A stretch of DNA of 64,000 bases from Acidocella aminolytica 101 = DSM 11237. Lineage in GTDB: Bacteria > Pseudomonadota > Alphaproteobacteria > Acetobacterales > Acetobacteraceae. The notes below the pieces were generated by a model, which was given only the letters and a program-made list of their open reading frames with translations, did not search any database and was not told the DNA's origin. The number at the start of each line of letters is the position of its first letter. Within the stretch, counting starts at the first letter, position 1. This document shows positions 36,650-43,397 of this stretch, piece by piece. The stretch spans positions 62,001-126,000 of the forward strand of contig NZ_FQVJ01000001.1 in NCBI RefSeq assembly GCF_900129125.1, read 5' to 3'. The translations under genes were made by a program, and so were the position numbers.

Positions 36650-37204
36650 CTAAAGAGATTTCGCGGCAGCCATCCCATAACCTGCCTGTGCAGGGGCCTG
36701 GGGCGCTTGAGGCGCCGGGAGGTCTGCGTCGCTTTGCTGACAAAAACGCGCCAGGGCGGCGTCCATGTCGTGCGCCAGCGTGTCGTCCGCGCAGGGCAGG
36801 CGCCAAATTGTTTCCGCGTCATCCCGCAGCGTAATTTTCAACACAACTTCCTGAAACCCGTTATCAACCAGGAAGTCCGGGCTGTGGCTGCCAATCATCT
36901 GGACCGGGTAAATCGCAGATTTCATGGTCCCGCCATTCGGTCTGGCCAGAAAAATGAGTCCTCTTTCCTGGTCGAACGCCAACCCACCACCGCGTGCGAA
37001 AAAGCTCTCATCCGGCGTGAACGGGCGCGGCGCGGCCGCTAGCGCGGTCTCGAACTGAAGATTTTTTCTTCTGGTAAGCTGTGTTTTGAGCCAAGCGGTG
37101 AGGGACATCCAGGCCCGGGTGGGCATGGCGGCAATGACGCAGAGAACCAAAGTCACCGTGATGAAAATCCAGTGAAAGGCAATGGCGGCCCAATAAAAAC
37201 TCAT
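36650..37204 (-). CDS. Membrane-anchored hypothetical protein
   Basis: 184 residues. One N-terminal membrane helix (about 5-27, YWAAIAFHWIFITVTLVLCV) is followed by a basic linker (TQLTRRKNLQF) and a soluble domain of about 110 residues (FFARGGGLAFDQERGLIFLA ... SPDFLVDNGFQEVVLKITLR), then a Pro/Ala-rich tail. GGGGG lies five bases before the ATG. I do not recognise the soluble domain. Its promoter region holds a perfect TTGA-N6-TCAA site at 37232-37245, tying it to the neighbouring low-oxygen-type cluster. Confidence 0.7.
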   Translation of the reverse strand: MSFYWAAIAFHWIFITVTLVLCVIAAMPTRAWMSLTAWLKTQLTRRKNLQFETALAAAPRPFTPDESFFARGGGLAFDQERGLIFLARPNGGTMKSAIYPVQMIGSHSPDFLVDNGFQEVVLKITLRDDAETIWRLPCADDTLAHDMDAALARFCQQSDADLPAPQAPQAPAQAGYGMAAAKSL

Positions 37205-37231
37205 GATAACCCCCGTAAATTGACTGCATTT

Positions 37232-37245
37232 TTGATAGCTGTCAA
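37232..37245. promoter_or_regulatory. FNR/FixK-type box (1)
   Basis: TTGATAGCTGTCAA lies 28-41 bases before the start of the membrane-anchored protein gene (minus strand). It matches TTGA-N6-TCAA fully and is close to the FNR consensus TTGAT-N4-ATCAA. Confidence 0.6.
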
Positions 37246-37328
37246 TTCCACAAAAATATTGGATTTTTTCTTAAGCGAATTGTTGCTGAAAAAGCAAATC
37301 AATCCTCCTAGGCAAAAAACAGATGGAA

Positions 37329-37342
37329 TTGATTGCATTCAA
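37329..37342. promoter_or_regulatory. FNR/FixK-type box (2)
   Basis: TTGATTGCATTCAA sits inside a longer perfect palindrome, GGAATTGA-TTGCAT-TCAATTCC (37325-37346), 116 bases before the phosphoribosyltransferase ATG. The CCAGTCAAT motif of the MocR gene follows at 37345-37353, overlapping the palindrome by two bases. Confidence 0.6.
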
Positions 37343-37457
37343 TTCCAGTCAATCGAGGTGTCTTGCAACTCATTCTGAAATCAGATTGAATGCTGGCCTA
37401 TTCAGTGCAATGATGTGTCGGTCTCCCTACATTATTTGTCGGATCCCGAGGCTAGTC

Positions 37458-38108
37458 ATGATTTACAAGAGCAGGCGGCAAGCTGGCGAAGATGTTGCCC
37501 GTCATTTGACCGCACTGCGCGGCCAATCCCCCGTGATACTCGCTTTGCCAAGGGGCGGCGTGCCAGTGGGGGTGGAAATCGCCAAGGCGTTGAACGCACC
37601 GCTTGGCTTGGTGCTGGTGCGCAAAATTGGCGTGCCGGGGAATGAAGAATTTGCCCTGGGGGCGATTGCTGAAGCTGATCCGCCGGAGCTGGTGCTGAAT
37701 GATGAGCTATTGGCAGCCTTCCGGGTGCCGCGAAGCTATATTGAGGCAGAAAAGGCAAAAGCGCTAAAGGAAATTCAACGCCGTCATGCCCTTTATCTAG
37801 GGAGCCGCCCGCCTTTGGCGCTTGAGGGGCGCCTTGTTGTTCTCACGGATGATGGCATCGCGACCGGCGCAACCGTTCTGGCGGCCTTGCGTGCCGTCCG
37901 GCGGCAGCACCCGGCCCGGCTTATACTCGCGGTGCCGCTTGCATCGCGTGAAGCCTTGAACCGGCTGGCGCATGAGGCGGATGAGGTGATCTGTCTGCAC
38001 AAACCCGAGCCGCTTGGCTCCGTGGGAGCGTATTATCTGCAATTTCCTCAGCTTCAGGACCAAGAGGTCATCGCCTTGCTTGAAACGCCAAACGAACAAC
38101 CTCCATAA
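37458..38108 (+). CDS. Phosphoribosyltransferase-family protein
   Basis: 216 residues. The PRPP-binding signature VVLTDDGIATGATVLAAL (acidic pair and GIATGAT loop) is at about 133-150. The N-terminal part (ILALPRGGVPVGVEIAKALN and LVLVRKIGVPGNEEFALGAI) matches a stand-alone PRTase family found in stress clusters of proteobacteria. GAGG stands seven bases before the ATG at 37458; the frame is open upstream but has no ribosome-binding site there. The substrate is unknown. Neighbouring phaC, phaB and CBS genes, all with FNR-type boxes, suggest a role under low oxygen or energy limitation. Confidence 0.8.
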   Translation: MIYKSRRQAGEDVARHLTALRGQSPVILALPRGGVPVGVEIAKALNAPLGLVLVRKIGVPGNEEFALGAIAEADPPELVLNDELLAAFRVPRSYIEAEKAKALKEIQRRHALYLGSRPPLALEGRLVVLTDDGIATGATVLAALRAVRRQHPARLILAVPLASREALNRLAHEADEVICLHKPEPLGSVGAYYLQFPQLQDQEVIALLETPNEQPP

Positions 38109-38126
38109 CCATCTTGCCCGGTGCCG

Positions 38127-38140
38127 TTGACGCATCTCAA
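38127..38140. promoter_or_regulatory. FNR/FixK-type box (3)
   Basis: TTGACGCATCTCAA lies 54 bases before the phaC ATG. It overlaps a wider inverted repeat CGCATCT (38131-38137) / AGATGCG (38165-38171). Confidence 0.55.
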
Positions 38141-38194
38141 TGTACAGTGTGATCTCGGAAGCTAAGATGCGCCTTCATGATCGGGGGAGTGGCT

Positions 38195-39904
38195 ATGAGC
38201 AATGGCTCCGCTTTTAGAACGTTTGATCGCGAACTTCATGCCGCGGAAGCGCATTTGACAGCGGGTTTGTCACCAGAGACGCTATTCGGAGCTTATATGG
38301 ATTGGGCTGGGCATCTCATAAACCAGCCGGGCCGAAGAACCGCACTGCTGCTGGATTTTTTGCAGGATATGGCCATTCTCACCCAGCAAGCCATGGGGGT
38401 AACAACGGCCAACGCGCTGCAGCCGAACCCAGGTGACCGCCGGTTTAATCATCCTGGCTGGGCAAGCTATCCTTTTTCGCTTTTCGAGCAGGCTTTTTTG
38501 CGGGCCGAGCGTTGGTGGAGCGTGGCGACCACAGGCATACAAGGCGTCTCGCGTAGCCATGAGCGCATGGTGAGCTTCACCGCCAGACAGCTATTAGACA
38601 TGATGGCGCCCTCCAATATCCCTTTTTTGAATCCTGAAGTGCTAGAAGCGACTTGGCAAAGCGAGGGGCGGAATTTGCTCCAGGGGTTCAGCAAATTCGT
38701 TGAGGACATGACCAAGCAGACCCGGGAGCTTCAGGCCAAGCTGCCCTTGCGGCCTGGGCGGGATGTTGCCGTTACGCCCGGTCAGGTGGTTCTGCGCAAT
38801 GGCTTGATCGAGCTGATTCAGTACAGCCCGCTAACAGACAAGGTGTACCCCGAGCCTGTACTCATTGTGCCTGCTTGGATCATGAAATATTATATTCTTG
38901 ATTTACAACCGCATGATTCACTGATCCGTTTTCTGGTGGAGCAGGGCTATACGGTTTTTTGCATTTCCTGGCTGAATCCCAGCCGCAAACAGCGGGAAGT
39001 GCATCTTGATGATTACCGAAAGCAAGGTGTCATGACCGCGATAGATGCCATTGCGGCGATTACAAAAGCCAGGAAAATTCACGCGGTGGGCTATTGCCTG
39101 GGCGGCACGTTGCTTTCAATCACTGCTGCAGCCATGGCCCGTGAACATGACGAACGCCTGGCCAGCCTGACGCTTCTGGCGGCCCAAACTGATTTTACGG
39201 AAGCCGGCGAATTGCAGCTTTTCATCAATGAGGCTCAACTCGCTTTTCTTGATGATCTAATGTGGAAAAGCGGATATCTCGACGCGTCTCAGATGGCGGG
39301 CGCGTTCCAGATGCTGCGTTCGGCCGATCTTATCTGGTCACGCATGGTCCGGCGCTATTATCTGGGGGTAGAGGACGAGCCAAATGACCTTACCTCCTGG
39401 AACATGGATGCAACCCGTATGCCTTATCGCATGCATTCCGAATATCTGTGGCATATGTTCCAGAATAATAATTTGGCGATGGGCCGCTTTCCGGCCGATG
39501 GCAAGCCGGTCTCGCTGAGTGATATCGATCTGCCACTATTCGTGGTAGGAACTGAAAGAGACCATATTGCACCGTGGCGCTCTGTTTATAAACTGCATCT
39601 TCTGAACCCTGGCAGTCTGACATTTGCTCTGGCATCTGGCGGGCACAATTCCGGCATTGTCAGCGAACCAGGTCGTGCAAACCGCAGTTATAAGATCCTG
39701 GAGCGCAAGAAGGGGGCGAAATATAGAGGCCCGGATGAATGGCTGCGGGTAGCCAAGCCCAGGGAGGGATCTTGGTGGCCGGAATGGACACGCTGGCTTG
39801 GGGCATGCTCCTCCGCGCCAAAATCCCCGCCACACATTGGCGATGAAGAAGCCGGTTATCCCCCGCTTTGCGCCGCGCCGGGAACCTATGTGATGCGGCG
39901 CTGA
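38195..39904 (+). CDS. phaC: Poly(3-hydroxyalkanoate) synthase, class I
   Basis: 569 residues from the ATG at 38195, chosen for GGGGGAG five bases upstream; an ATG six codons earlier lacks one. The N-terminal domain (1-190) is typical of PhaC. The alpha/beta-hydrolase core has the lipase-like box G-Y-C-L-G with catalytic Cys301, an aspartate in VGTERDHIAPW and the final His in ASGGHNSGIV. It polymerises (R)-3-hydroxybutyryl-CoA on granules. It is followed after 75 bases by phaB. No phaA thiolase, phasin or PhaR is in the window. Confidence 0.95.
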   Translation: MSNGSAFRTFDRELHAAEAHLTAGLSPETLFGAYMDWAGHLINQPGRRTALLLDFLQDMAILTQQAMGVTTANALQPNPGDRRFNHPGWASYPFSLFEQAFLRAERWWSVATTGIQGVSRSHERMVSFTARQLLDMMAPSNIPFLNPEVLEATWQSEGRNLLQGFSKFVEDMTKQTRELQAKLPLRPGRDVAVTPGQVVLRNGLIELIQYSPLTDKVYPEPVLIVPAWIMKYYILDLQPHDSLIRFLVEQGYTVFCISWLNPSRKQREVHLDDYRKQGVMTAIDAIAAITKARKIHAVGYCLGGTLLSITAAAMAREHDERLASLTLLAAQTDFTEAGELQLFINEAQLAFLDDLMWKSGYLDASQMAGAFQMLRSADLIWSRMVRRYYLGVEDEPNDLTSWNMDATRMPYRMHSEYLWHMFQNNNLAMGRFPADGKPVSLSDIDLPLFVVGTERDHIAPWRSVYKLHLLNPGSLTFALASGGHNSGIVSEPGRANRSYKILERKKGAKYRGPDEWLRVAKPREGSWWPEWTRWLGACSSAPKSPPHIGDEEAGYPPLCAAPGTYVMRR

Positions 39905-39911
39905 AATATTA

Positions 39912-39925
39912 TTGATAACAGTCAA
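39912..39925. promoter_or_regulatory. FNR/FixK-type box (4)
   Basis: TTGATAACAGTCAA lies in the phaC-phaB gap, 54 bases before the phaB ATG. phaB may therefore have its own promoter in addition to read-through from phaC. Confidence 0.6.
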
Positions 39926-39979
39926 AGCGACTCCACCCTGTGGCAGATAAACTCAGTTTATCCACGGAAAGGAAGTTTT

Positions 39980-40702
39980 ATGGCTCGCATTGCATTAATT
40001 ACCGGGGGCGTTAGCGGCATTGGCGCGGCTACGGCAAAGCTCTTGAAAAATTCAGGCTATAGCGTTGTGGCGAACTATTTTGGAAACGATGCTGATGCAG
40101 CTTCTTTTCATAAGGAAACCGGTATCCCAGTTCATGCTTGGAATGTCGGAGATTTTGGGGGCACCCAGACCGCCATTGAGGCGGTGGAGAAAGAGCATGG
40201 CGCTATTGACATTCTTATCAATAATGCTGGGATCACGCATGATTCCAGCTTGCATAAAATGACTTACGAGCAATGGCGTACTGTTATCGATGTAGATTTA
40301 GGCGGGTGTTTTAACACATGCCGTGCGGTTATTGGCGGTATGCGGACGCGGGGCTTTGGCCGGATTGTAAATATCAGCTCAGTTAATGCTTTGTCCGGTC
40401 AGTTTGGGCAGACCAATTATTGCGCGGCCAAGGCCGGGATTATCGGTTTTACCAAGGCGTTGGCGCTGGAGGGCGCATCCCACGGTATCACTGCCAACGC
40501 GATTGCTCCCGGCTATACCGACACAGGAATGGTTGGTGCGGTGCCGGAGAAAATTCTGCAGGATATTGTGGCGCATGTGCCAGTCGGGCGCTTGGCAAAG
40601 CCGGAGGAAATCGCACGTGGGATTTTGTTCCTGGTTGATGATAAGGCTGAGTTTGTAACGGGCGTGACTCTTTCCATCAATGGTGGGAAATATATGCCCT
40701 GA
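39980..40702 (+). CDS. phaB: Acetoacetyl-CoA reductase
   Basis: 240 residues of the short-chain dehydrogenase family. Cofactor motif TGGVSGIG (8-15), NNAG (81-84), catalytic Ser in NISS (133-134), Tyr147 and Lys151 (YCAAKAG). The length and the ANAIAPGYTDTGMV segment fit PhaB, which reduces acetoacetyl-CoA to (R)-3-hydroxybutyryl-CoA with NADPH. AAGGAAG lies four bases before the ATG. Gene order phaC-phaB supports the role. Confidence 0.93.
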   Translation: MARIALITGGVSGIGAATAKLLKNSGYSVVANYFGNDADAASFHKETGIPVHAWNVGDFGGTQTAIEAVEKEHGAIDILINNAGITHDSSLHKMTYEQWRTVIDVDLGGCFNTCRAVIGGMRTRGFGRIVNISSVNALSGQFGQTNYCAAKAGIIGFTKALALEGASHGITANAIAPGYTDTGMVGAVPEKILQDIVAHVPVGRLAKPEEIARGILFLVDDKAEFVTGVTLSINGGKYMP

Positions 40703-40710
40703 CCCTGCTG

Positions 40711-40743
40711 ACGTAGCGGATCCCAAAGCAGGATCCGCTACGT
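40711..40743. terminator. Strong bidirectional terminator between phaB and CBS gene
   Basis: ACGTAGCGGATCC and GGATCCGCTACGT form a perfect 13-base-pair stem with loop CAAAGCA. It lies between the convergent phaB and CBS-domain genes, nine bases before the end of the latter. Confidence 0.75.
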
Positions 40744-40752
40744 TCCAATGCT

Positions 40753-41217
40753 TTATCCTTTGCTGTTGCTCGCTAGGTTTCGGATAATATTGGCGCGGCT
40801 GACGATACCAACCACGCGCCGCCCCTCCATAATGGGAACACGCTTGACATGGTGCTTATCTAGCAGCCCAGCCAATTCTTCCATTGTGGCGGTTGTGGGG
40901 GCGGTAATAACCTCGTGCGTCATAAGGTCTGTGGCGGTACGTTTGTTTTGGCTGATATAGTCGATAAATTCAGGCGCCAAACTCTCGCCTTCGGCCAGCA
41001 TTTCCAACCACCATTCACGCCTTTTCTGCATCTCAGCGGTCACGGGCCGCACCAAATCTCCCTCGCTGACCATACCGAGCAGGTGGCCCTGCGCGTCGAT
41101 CACCGGGACGGCACTGATTGCGTGTTTCACCAACAAAGCCGCAATTTGCGGGACGGGCGTGCTTGGCCCAACAGAGATCACATCACGGGTCATAATCTGG
41201 GCGGCGGTGGAGGGCAT
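40753..41217 (-). CDS. Tandem CBS-domain protein
   Basis: 154 residues made of two CBS motifs (IMTRDVISVGPSTPVPQIAA with VIDAQGHLLGMVSEGDLVRP; LMTHEVITAPTTATMEELAG with VGIVSRANI) around a short linker (EMQKRREWWLEMLAEG). CBS pairs bind adenosine nucleotides and sense energy charge. AGGA lies nine bases before the ATG. A perfect TTGA-N6-TCAA site is 61 bases upstream. It is convergent with phaB. Confidence 0.85.
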   Translation of the reverse strand: MPSTAAQIMTRDVISVGPSTPVPQIAALLVKHAISAVPVIDAQGHLLGMVSEGDLVRPVTAEMQKRREWWLEMLAEGESLAPEFIDYISQNKRTATDLMTHEVITAPTTATMEELAGLLDKHHVKRVPIMEGRRVVGIVSRANIIRNLASNSKG

Positions 41218-41277
41218 GACAGTTGTTCCTATAGCCTGATTTTATAGCTTTTCTATTATGCTATGGTCGAAAGAACC

Positions 41278-41291
41278 TTGATTTTGGTCAA
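41278..41291. promoter_or_regulatory. FNR/FixK-type box (5)
   Basis: TTGATTTTGGTCAA is in the gap between the divergent CBS gene (61 bases away) and the host-attachment-type gene (126 bases away). It best suits the CBS promoter. Confidence 0.6.
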
Positions 41292-41342
41292 ACTATTATA
41301 GTCGGCGGCCAGATGGATCAAAACCCTAAATTCCGGTAATGT

Positions 41343-41356
41343 TTGACGAAAGTCAT
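41343..41356. promoter_or_regulatory. FNR/FixK-type box (6), one mismatch
   Basis: TTGACGAAAGTCAT differs by one base from TTGA-N6-TCAA and lies 61 bases before the ATG of the host-attachment-type gene, the same distance seen for the CBS gene and box 5. Confidence 0.4.
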
Positions 41357-41416
41357 CGCTCTTTGGGGTCGAATTACAATATATTCATTGCAGATTCAGG
41401 TTAGGTAGCTTTCAAA

Positions 41417-41899
41417 ATGATTCCACATCATAAGTTGCTAATTATCTTGTATGACGGCGAACATGCCCGCTTTATCCGCCCCAACGAGGCGAATGTTCTG
41501 CACACCGCCCGCACAATTGACTCTAAGGACGCGCATCATCGCTCAGCCGATTTGCGGAGCGACCGGCCCGGCGCGACTTTCCATAGCGATTCCACGGCCC
41601 ACCACGCCCTCACCCCGCGTCATGACCCGCATGATATGGAGAAGGAAAGTTTTGTCCGTTTTATTGCGGAGGAATTGAAAGCGGTTCCCGGTGATTCATT
41701 TGACCGTCTGATTCTGGCGGCGCCTGCTTATGCTTTGAATATTATCAAGAGCGAACTTTCAGCCGACATTCTGGATAAGATGACGGGCATCATCTCTAAG
41801 GATCTGCTCAAGGTGCCTGATGATGAGTTGTGGGAGCATCTCAAGCCGTTTGTTCCTGCCGCCAACCCTGCACGATGGACGGGCAATAAGTCGCCGTGA
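41417..41899 (+). CDS. Host-attachment-type protein (AtsA family)
   Basis: 160 residues resembling the bacterial host-attachment protein family (Pfam PF10116), first named for a plant-attachment factor. Visible features: LLIILYDGEHARFIRPNEAN at the N-terminus, a His/Asp-rich middle (HHALTPRHDPHDMEKESFVR), and FDRLILAAPAYALNIIKSEL in the second half, a peptide-release-factor-eRF1-like fold. The biochemical role is unknown; such genes often sit in low-oxygen stress clusters. The SD is weak (TTAGG). Confidence 0.75.
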   Translation: MIPHHKLLIILYDGEHARFIRPNEANVLHTARTIDSKDAHHRSADLRSDRPGATFHSDSTAHHALTPRHDPHDMEKESFVRFIAEELKAVPGDSFDRLILAAPAYALNIIKSELSADILDKMTGIISKDLLKVPDDELWEHLKPFVPAANPARWTGNKSP

Positions 41900-42231: not shown

Positions 42232-43397
42232 GGCATCTCTGAATAAATCGCCTCGAATGGCAACGACGGCATTTCCTAAACTCTGTTTTTTGCGGGGGTG
42301 TTTGCATGCGTCAGTCGAGCTTTGCCGGAGTTGGCTTTGAGCGTTACGGCAAGACGACGCGGCGCGCGGTATTTTTGGCGGAGATGGGGCAGGTCATCCC
42401 CTGGGGCGATCTCCACGCGTTGATTGAGCCTGTGTACCCGAAGGCCGGGAGGGGCCGCCGGCCTGTTGGGCTTGAGCGTATGTTGCGCATTCACTTTCTC
42501 CAGCACTGGTTCAACCTGTCTGACCCCGCGGTTGAGGAAGCGCTTTACGAATCGGACTCGATGCACCGTTTTGTTGGCATTGACCTGGGTCAGGAGCCGG
42601 TCCCTGACGAGACGACGGTCTGCAAATTCCGTCACTTGCTTGAGGCGCACGATTTCGGGCGGGTGCTGTTTGAGCAGGTTCATGCGCACCTTGAAGCTCG
42701 CGGGATCAAGATATCCACGGGCACGATCATGGACGCGACGATTATCGCGGCACCATCTTCGACCAAGAATGCGTCTGGCCGGCGCGATCCGGAGATGCAC
42801 CAGACCCGCAAAGGGCAGCAATGGTATTTCGGCATGAAGGCGCATGTGGGCGTGGACAGCAAAACCAAGATCATTCACGCGGTGGTGGCGACGGCGGCGA
42901 ATGTGCATGACAGCGCAGTTCTGGGCGATCTGCTGCATGGAAAGGAAACCCGCGTCTGGGGCGACCAGGCTTATCGCGGCCAGCTCGATGTCGTTCGCGA
43001 ACATGCGCCGCGCGCCAAGGACTTCACCAACCGGTGCTACCAGCATCGCGGCATGGTGGACGAGGCACAAAAGGCGCGAAACCGCACCAAGTCTCGGCTG
43101 CGGGCCAAGGTCGAGCGCTGTTTCGCGGTGATCAAGGGCGTGTTCGGGTTCACAAAGCTGCGTTATCGAGGGCTGGAGAAGAACGCCCAGCGCTTGTTTG
43201 TGGCCTGTTCGTTGGCCAACTTGTTCATGATCCGAAGACGGTTGATGCCCGCCTGATTGGCCAAGCCGCAAAAATGCGGCGGTTCAATGCCCTTAGAAGG
43301 AAACATAAAAAAGGCCGTCAGCCAAAGCGTCGCCAATGACGTCCCGCTAAACGAAGAAATTTCCCAGACCCAAAATCAAACCTTATTCAGAGATGCC
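42232..43397 (+). mobile_element. Complete IS5-family insertion sequence
   Basis: 1166 bases bounded by perfect 15-base inverted repeats, GGCATCTCTGAATAA at 42232-42246 and TTATTCAGAGATGCC at 43383-43397. It is flanked by a TTAA direct duplication (42228-42231 and 43398-43401), which fits the YTAR target of the IS5 subgroup. The single transposase gene is intact, so the element may be active. Confidence 0.92.
42306..43256 (+). CDS. IS5-family transposase
   Basis: 316 residues. The N-terminal DUF772-type region (VGLERMLRIHFLQHWFNLSD) precedes the DDE domain. Catalytic segments are TIMDATIIAAPSSTKN (first Asp), HDSAVLGDLLHGKETRVWGD with QAYRG (second Asp) and the C-terminal RAKVERCFAVIKGVFGFTKL (Glu of the Y(2)R(3)E(6)K-like motif). 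The full reading frame and intact ends indicate a functional copy. A long frame on the opposite strand is a shadow. Confidence 0.92.
   Translation: MRQSSFAGVGFERYGKTTRRAVFLAEMGQVIPWGDLHALIEPVYPKAGRGRRPVGLERMLRIHFLQHWFNLSDPAVEEALYESDSMHRFVGIDLGQEPVPDETTVCKFRHLLEAHDFGRVLFEQVHAHLEARGIKISTGTIMDATIIAAPSSTKNASGRRDPEMHQTRKGQQWYFGMKAHVGVDSKTKIIHAVVATAANVHDSAVLGDLLHGKETRVWGDQAYRGQLDVVREHAPRAKDFTNRCYQHRGMVDEAQKARNRTKSRLRAKVERCFAVIKGVFGFTKLRYRGLEKNAQRLFVACSLANLFMIRRRLMPA

Follow-up and report, generated by a model that had tools for sequence, protein, structure and literature searches.

FNR-type boxes point to a probable low-oxygen regulon behind a storage and stress gene cluster of Acidocella aminolytica

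Background

Could a single oxygen-responsive regulator control a group of neighboring storage and stress genes in Acidocella aminolytica 101 = DSM 11237? We analyzed a 64,000-nucleotide stretch of this alphaproteobacterial genome (contig NZ_FQVJ01000001.1, positions 62,001 to 126,000), referred to here as the window, in which the cluster under study spans positions 36650..41899. It encodes an unnamed membrane protein, a phosphoribosyltransferase-fold protein (PRTase), the polyhydroxyalkanoate (PHA) synthase gene phaC, the acetoacetyl-CoA reductase gene phaB, a CBS-domain protein, and a host-attachment protein. An earlier note on this DNA had reported five perfect TTGA-N6-TCAA sites and one near-match in the promoter regions of these genes, attributed them to one CRP/FNR-type regulator acting when oxygen falls, and put forward the membrane protein and the PRTase as candidate new members of the response. 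We find that the cluster is very probably part of a low-oxygen regulon of an FNR/FixK-type activator; that its genes respond to oxygen is something we infer from the boxes, their surroundings, and the regulator genes.

Results

A pattern scan of the window placed perfect TTGA-N6-TCAA sites at 37232, 37329, 38127, 39912, and 41278, and the near-match TTGACGAAAGTCAT, with one mismatch and a score of 8.7 bits, at 41343, all where the earlier note had put them. One additional perfect dyad at 41735, within the host-attachment reading frame, had been missed and is probably a chance occurrence. The pattern was observed 8 times in the window versus 0.94 times expected from dinucleotide shuffles, none of 100 of which reached 8. 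The whole genome (3.96 Mb in 109 contigs) contains 84 such sites, or ~1.4 per 64 kb, against 16 for a reversed control pattern, and the stricter form TTGAY-N4-RTCAA was found 31 times versus 2 times reversed. In 20,000 simulations with 84 sites placed uniformly on the genome, a group of five within 4,060 bp arose 4 times, so the clustering is beyond chance. Three of the five perfect sites (37232, 39912, and 41278) follow the strict consensus in full, and the boxes fit the alphaproteobacterial FNR/FixK box class.

The comparison with orthologous promoters, suggested by the earlier note as a check, showed that the boxes recur. It covered 38 genomes of the genus, including that of the window, and TTGA-N6-TCAA was ranked among 4,352 palindromic dyads (256 words × 17 spacings). 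A perfect box was found upstream of 15 of the 19 close CBS loci. It stands 62–70 bp ahead of the aligned start in eight of these, at 117 bp in one, and at 142–276 bp in six, where the frame of the relative is longer or its start is unclear. Distant CBS loci had a perfect box in 6 of 9 cases, at 37–57 bp. For host-attachment genes, 20 of the 26 loci (a set that includes paralogues, one of them, L185, from the genome of the window) had a perfect box at 60–75 bp, as did 7 of the 13 closest loci taken alone. The six misses (L166–L171) directly follow a same-strand CBS gene that itself has an upstream box (L078–L083). In the close CBS, distant CBS, and host-attachment sets alike, TTGA-N6-TCAA was rank 1 of the 4,352 dyads. 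Before counting, we excluded L186–L188, which are second pieces of host-attachment genes already counted, and L106, a distant CBS locus with only 13 upstream bases.

The position of the boxes relative to the genes was also consistent with activation. Distances from box centers to start codons are given in Table 1; they are identical for phaC and phaB, and again for the CBS and host-attachment genes. In 41 distinct box-downstream segments from the CBS and host-attachment loci, we scored the match to TATAAT at each offset. The mean match peaked with the hexamer starting 29 bp past the box center (2.71/6, against 0.56–2.07 at the other offsets from 7 to 43), which is the spacing expected for a box centered at −41.5 (class II). 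This box-to-hexamer spacing was found at four genes of the cluster: phaC (TAAGAT), phaB (TAAACT), and the CBS gene (TAGAAA) each have a −10 hexamer matching at 4/6 positions 29 bp from the box center, and the host-attachment gene has TATATT (5/6) 30 bp from the center of the near-match box at 41343. For the PRTase, the best hexamer at class II spacing matches at 3/6 positions only and is not convincing.

A likely reader of the boxes is encoded in the same genome. A scan with PF13545 returned five matches above cut-off, four of which are CRP/FNR proteins, while the weakest (on contig C84; proteins are named here by their contig) looked GntR-type by reading. The search for an fnr or fixK gene, another check named in the earlier note, was positive on both counts, with a four-cysteine FNR (C42) and two FixK-like proteins (C26 and C91). 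In the C42 protein, Cys-x2-Cys-x7-Cys lies close to the N terminus, the fourth cysteine is central, and the recognition helix contains ETVSR. Matches of at least 56% identity were found in 30 of the 38 genomes, its own counted, and in all 31 aligned rows (30 genomes, the query being entered twice) Cys 27, 30, 38, and 126 are invariant, as are E218, S221, and R222 of the E-xx-SR motif. Its best NCBIfam match is FnrL, at 161 bits versus a cut-off of 300, followed by Fnr at 98 versus 228; it resembles an FNR without being a curated FnrL equivalog. Boxes or near-boxes are present at the promoter of fnr itself, both here and in many relatives, with the near-match box centered 34.5 bp from the fnr start codon, and the CBS gene behind fnr is also preceded by a box. 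FixK is the best NCBIfam match of C26 and C91, and FtrB that of a fourth protein, C8, in each case below cut-off.

Genome-wide, the strict motif occurs 776 times in the 38 genomes versus 59 times reversed. The median number of strict sites per Mb was 8.6 in the 30 genomes with this FNR and 3.75 in the 8 genomes without it (one-sided Mann-Whitney p = 0.003, a test that ignores completeness and kinship), and several of the FNR-less assemblies are incomplete. Two of these, G026 and G036, have 2 strict sites each, which is not above the reversed control, and G028 has 20. In a region of G028 (L119:3040-12654), fabI-like, phaC, and CBS genes sit next to a FixK-like gene, a LuxR-type response regulator, and a PAS histidine kinase; it is possible that a FixLJK-like system has replaced FNR in this genome. 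Of the 31 strict sites in the genome of the window, the 27 that were read all lie outside the window. Seven precede genes with a named product: narG, cydA, hemN, a zinc alcohol dehydrogenase, a phaC paralogue, a baeRF12 paralogue, and the CBS gene beside fnr. The narG box (L001:1501-1514, at C8:9300 in this genome) has narG on one side and a divergent FtrB-like CRP/FNR gene on the other, which suggests that nitrate respiration may be under the same switch. A class-wide sample of 241 genomes yielded 27 with a CBS match, the genome of the window included; among the 29 CBS loci read from the others, a box was present upstream in 14 and downstream in none.

A number of observations weigh against assigning the cluster to an FNR/FixK regulon. 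The strict consensus is broken in one half of the boxes at 37329 (TTCAA) and 38127 (CTCAA) and of the near-match at 41343, which leaves the phaC, PRTase, and host-attachment boxes imperfect. At the 29-bp offset, just 22% of the 41 segments match TATAAT at four or more of the six positions. Perfect boxes are missing from four of the 19 close CBS loci (L086, L094, L095, and L096, with a near-match of 14.5 bits in L095), and 15 of the 29 class-wide CBS loci have no upstream box of at least 15 bits. Some of the 8 genomes of the genus that lack this FNR keep boxes (G029, G026: one before a CBS gene), and in the genome of the window the other 20 of the 27 strict sites are without a named target or lie inside reading frames. 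At phaC, a perfect box was found in the 350 bp directly upstream in none of 29 relatives. Upstream of the 25 close phaC genes TTGA-N6-TCAA does not stand out, at rank 411 of 4,352, and the nearest relatives, L130 and L131, have only near-matches, TTGAT-N4-GTCAT at −64 and −68. The two closest phaB relatives (74–76% identity) have no direct box. Directly upstream of the PRTase, TTGA-N6-TCAA was found in 1 of 6 relatives and ranked 19 of 4,352.

The phaC result changes with the distance searched. After the direct result of 0/29, we chose to widen the search to 1.5 kb with a downstream control, using the 25 closer of the 29 phaC loci (L149 has only 483 bases upstream and L131 only 867 downstream). 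A box of at least 15 bits was then found upstream in 18 of the 25 and downstream in one, and most of the upstream boxes are placed where a likely operon begins. Of the 18 loci, 11 have the box, by reading, ~60–82 bp before a small gene, after which come a fabI-like gene and then phaC in the same orientation. Of the others, one (L146) has a middle gene that could not be resolved, two reach phaC via a small gene, and four via a lipoprotein-like gene. The fabI identity was checked in L148 only, where NF005717 is above cut-off. Recurrence of the box did not extend to the direct phaC promoter or to the two closest phaB relatives. Among 29 phaB loci read, a perfect box within 300 bp was present in 2; in G003, phaC and phaB share a strand, with phaB the downstream gene and an 11.8-bit near-match before it.

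Several other features of these loci were observed. A protein of roughly 83–108 amino acids recurrently leads the likely box-fabI-phaC operon (L137, L145, L148, and similar loci), and no Pfam or NCBIfam family was found in the three copies scanned. Eight of the 29 phaB-like loci (L253, L254, L256, L257, L261, L265, L266, and L269; 54–57% identity) have TTGAY-N4-RTCAT near-matches ~125–140 bp upstream, with the same TCAT half as the window site at 41343. In L113:8773-16469 (G009) and L112 (G032), two full boxes precede the beta gene of an F-type ATP synthase operon, whose beta and alpha products are above the general NCBIfam cut-offs and below the 'alternate F1F0' ones. The L113 operon is followed by a polyhydroxybutyrate (PHB) depolymerase gene (PF06850), and in L134 and L135 a lipoprotein-like gene and phaC lie across the boxes from the ATP synthase operon. 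Around the plasmid-borne phaC relatives in Paracoccus and Agrobacterium, no annotated CBS or host-attachment gene was seen within 10 kb, in a plasmid gene table that is incomplete. An alignment of the window phaC promoter with six relatives was poor and was not used.

The two proposed new members differ in outcome. The PRTase is present in 7 of the 38 genomes, that of the window included, and five of its six relatives are behind a box, four of them via a likely operon. In L194, the box lies 64 bp before the PRTase's own start. In L190, L191, and L192, it lies 60.5–63.5 bp before an alpha/beta-hydrolase-like gene that precedes the PRTase on the same strand (the family match is below cut-off in the two scanned), and in L193 the PRTase is the third same-strand frame after the box. 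The L195 PRTase, near a contig end, has no box. The PRTase is probably a regulon member, as had been proposed. Its backing comes indirectly from relatives; in the window, the box before it is imperfect and its center lies 122.5 bp from the ATG. The membrane protein was rejected as an activated member: none of its 18 relatives has a box, and its own box, 34.5 bp from the ATG, is too near. Class II activation is impossible for the gene as annotated, because the −10 hexamer would overlap its ATG. It is probably outside the regulon, or repressed; repression is possible because the box is as near its start as the near-match box is to that of fnr. A single-sequence structure model of this protein was poor (pLDDT 58), with the first 26 residues modeled as a helix.

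Features of the cluster are summarized in Table 1, and the gene identities of the earlier note agree with Pfam. Two starts probably differ from the longest frame. The PRTase probably starts at 37458, because three of six relatives match from residue 1 there, and phaC probably at 38195, because GGGGGAG precedes that ATG. A DDE transposase gene (42306-43256; Pfam) lies just right of the cluster.

Table 1. Genes and FNR-type boxes of the cluster, in positions of the window; distances run from box center to start codon
Feature	Position	Strand	Remarks
Unnamed 184-aa membrane protein, N-terminal hydrophobic helix	36650..37204	-	No Pfam/NCBIfam family
Full-consensus FNR-type box TTGATAGCTGTCAA	37232..37245		34.5 bp from membrane protein ATG, 219.5 bp from PRTase ATG
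Imperfect FNR-type box TTGATTGCATTCAA	37329..37342		122.5 bp before PRTase ATG
Phosphoribosyltransferase-fold protein (PRTase)	37458..38108	+	PF00156
phaC box TTGACGCATCTCAA	38127..38140	+	61.5 bp before ATG 38195
phaC, PHA synthase	38195..39904	+	Pfam; closest NCBIfam is class I (TIGR01838), below its cut-off
phaB box TTGATAACAGTCAA	39912..39925	+	61.5 bp before phaB ATG
phaB, acetoacetyl-CoA reductase	39980..40702	+	TIGR01829 above cut-off
Protein with two CBS domains	40753..41217	-	Pfam
Full-consensus CBS box TTGATTTTGGTCAA	41278..41291		67.5 bp before CBS ATG
Near-match host-attachment box TTGACGAAAGTCAT	41343..41356	+	67.5 bp before host-attachment ATG
Host-attachment / baeRF family 12 protein	41417..41899	+	PF18856 and PF10116
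Perfect dyad inside host-attachment frame	41735..41748		Pattern scan

Discussion

An FNR/FixK-type regulator is the best explanation for the boxes, because the motif, the spacing to starts and −10 hexamers, the recurrence at orthologues, and the conserved four-cysteine FNR agree. The central proposal of the earlier note, that one CRP/FNR-type regulator is behind the boxes, is supported by the same agreement. In the mechanism that we propose, the C42 FNR would keep its [4Fe-4S] cluster and dimerize as oxygen falls, and the dimer would bind boxes centered near −41.5 and activate transcription (class II). The cell would thereby make PHB as an electron sink, together with the CBS and baeRF-type stress proteins. 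FNR may have these sites in common with a FixK-like protein (C26). The PRTase would probably be included in the response, and the membrane protein would probably not be activated, though it could be repressed.

The identity of the reader is where an alternative has the most room. The main reader of the boxes could be a FixK-like protein, controlled by a FixLJ-type system or in some other way, in place of an iron-sulphur FNR, with similar oxygen logic and a different sensor. FNR and FixK proteins recognize boxes that are very much alike (PMC4999443), C26 and C91 match FixK best, albeit below cut-off, a receiver-only protein adjoins the C26 gene, and the FNR-less G028 has its FixK-like gene and two-component proteins beside CBS and phaC genes. 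Set against this, FNR is present in 30 of the 38 genomes, its promoter has boxes or near-boxes, a boxed CBS gene lies behind it, and site density tracks its presence. For the Rhodospirillales that it examined, PMC4999443 reports FnrN alone and no FixK, which counts here if the window belongs to that order, and no fixL was found in the 3.2 kb around the C26 gene, the only region searched for it. On balance, we consider a FixK reader rather unlikely, if the strongest of the competing explanations.

Slightly less probable again is that the box at 37232 is a repressor site through which FNR shuts off the membrane protein at low oxygen. It is a full-consensus box, its center is at the same distance from the ATG as that of the near-match box at the start of fnr, and a class II −10 hexamer at this site would run into the start codon. 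No perfect box of any kind was found in the 18 relatives, however, and the site could belong to the PRTase promoter instead, or have no effect. It is very improbable that the dyads arose by chance or are parts of sigma-70 −35 elements (TTGACA) to which no CRP/FNR protein binds. TTGAC half-sites can coincide with −35 elements, and over the whole genome the bare dyad exceeds expectation by a modest margin only (84 versus ~58, scaled from the window shuffles), but neither point accounts for the clustering in the simulations, the first rank among all dyads at the CBS and host-attachment loci, or the favored distances from box to start codon and from box to −10 hexamer.

Returning to an FNR/FixK-type regulon, we tentatively suggest that in this genus it forms a recurring low-oxygen PHB module, an idea that we hold with a little less than even confidence. 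The module would consist of a box-small protein-enoyl-ACP reductase-PHA synthase operon and an alpha/beta-hydrolase-like/PRTase operon, the latter in some cases with a protein that we take to be like phosphoribosyl pyrophosphate (PRPP) synthetase, joined in some species by the F-type ATP synthase operon and PHB depolymerase. If this is true, storage, ribose-phosphate metabolism, and ATP synthesis would switch together with oxygen. The PRTase operon and the small unnamed protein before fabI-phaC offer concrete test cases for the response to oxygen run-out, and the candidate list is corrected by setting aside the unnamed membrane protein as unlikely to be activated.

Comparison with known systems

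The cluster is not a new kind of system, because there are precedents in FixK2 of Bradyrhizobium, FnrL of Rhodobacter, and Fnr of Herbaspirillum seropedicae, the last of these a betaproteobacterium; FixK2 control of phaC2, a CBS gene, and a host-attachment gene has already been published for Bradyrhizobium. Our literature searches returned no paper on this regulon in the genus of the window, a result that cannot establish absence.

Outside the alphaproteobacteria, H. seropedicae is similar in that Fnr proteins are needed for the expression of its three PHA synthase genes and for full PHB at falling oxygen, and differs in having three Fnr orthologues (PMC5862806). In Burkholderia cenocepacia H111, the PHA synthase BCAL1863 and the CBS protein BCAM1926 are both in the micro-oxia table, and an FNR-type regulator is suggested as a controller; by their locus numbers the two genes lie apart, in contrast to the window, and direct control is not shown in the passages available (PMC3759415). 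Among alphaproteobacterial FnrL/FNR and FixK regulons, the consensus TTGAT-N4-ATCAA is similar, and Rhodobacter FnrL sites found by chromatin immunoprecipitation, such as TTGACgcggATCAA, have the same form as the window boxes (PMC2908626). A CBS protein and a zinc alcohol dehydrogenase are in a list of predicted targets just before the FNR part of that paper, presumably those of FixK. It differs in that neither "phaC" nor "polyhydroxy-" occurs in its main text (PMC2908626).

The closest likeness is to the FixK2 regulon of Bradyrhizobium diazoefficiens, a bacterium of soybean nodules, both in the kinds of genes (phaC2 bll6073, CBS blr6074, and host-attachment bll4645) and in the box class (PMC9104804). 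Loss of fixK2 lowered phaC2 27.9-fold (box TTGATGCAGCTCAA at −81), the CBS gene 90.9-fold (box at −143), and bll4645 10.6-fold (box TTGATCGGGATCAA at −69), and phaC2 is among the FixK2 targets validated via in vitro transcription (PMC9104804). The phaC2 box and the window phaC box have in common the form TTGAY-N4-CTCAA (PMC9104804), and phaC2, blr6074, and host-attachment proteins are listed in a microoxia table (PMC6515984), which we cite for the listing and not for the meaning of its columns. The two systems differ in the activator, which is FixK2 under FixLJ in Bradyrhizobium, whereas the four-cysteine FNR is the likelier reader here, and in that phaC and phaB of the window each have their own box. 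A low-oxygen storage regulon tested in Bradyrhizobium would thereby extend to another genus, with a footprint that can be measured over 38 genomes.

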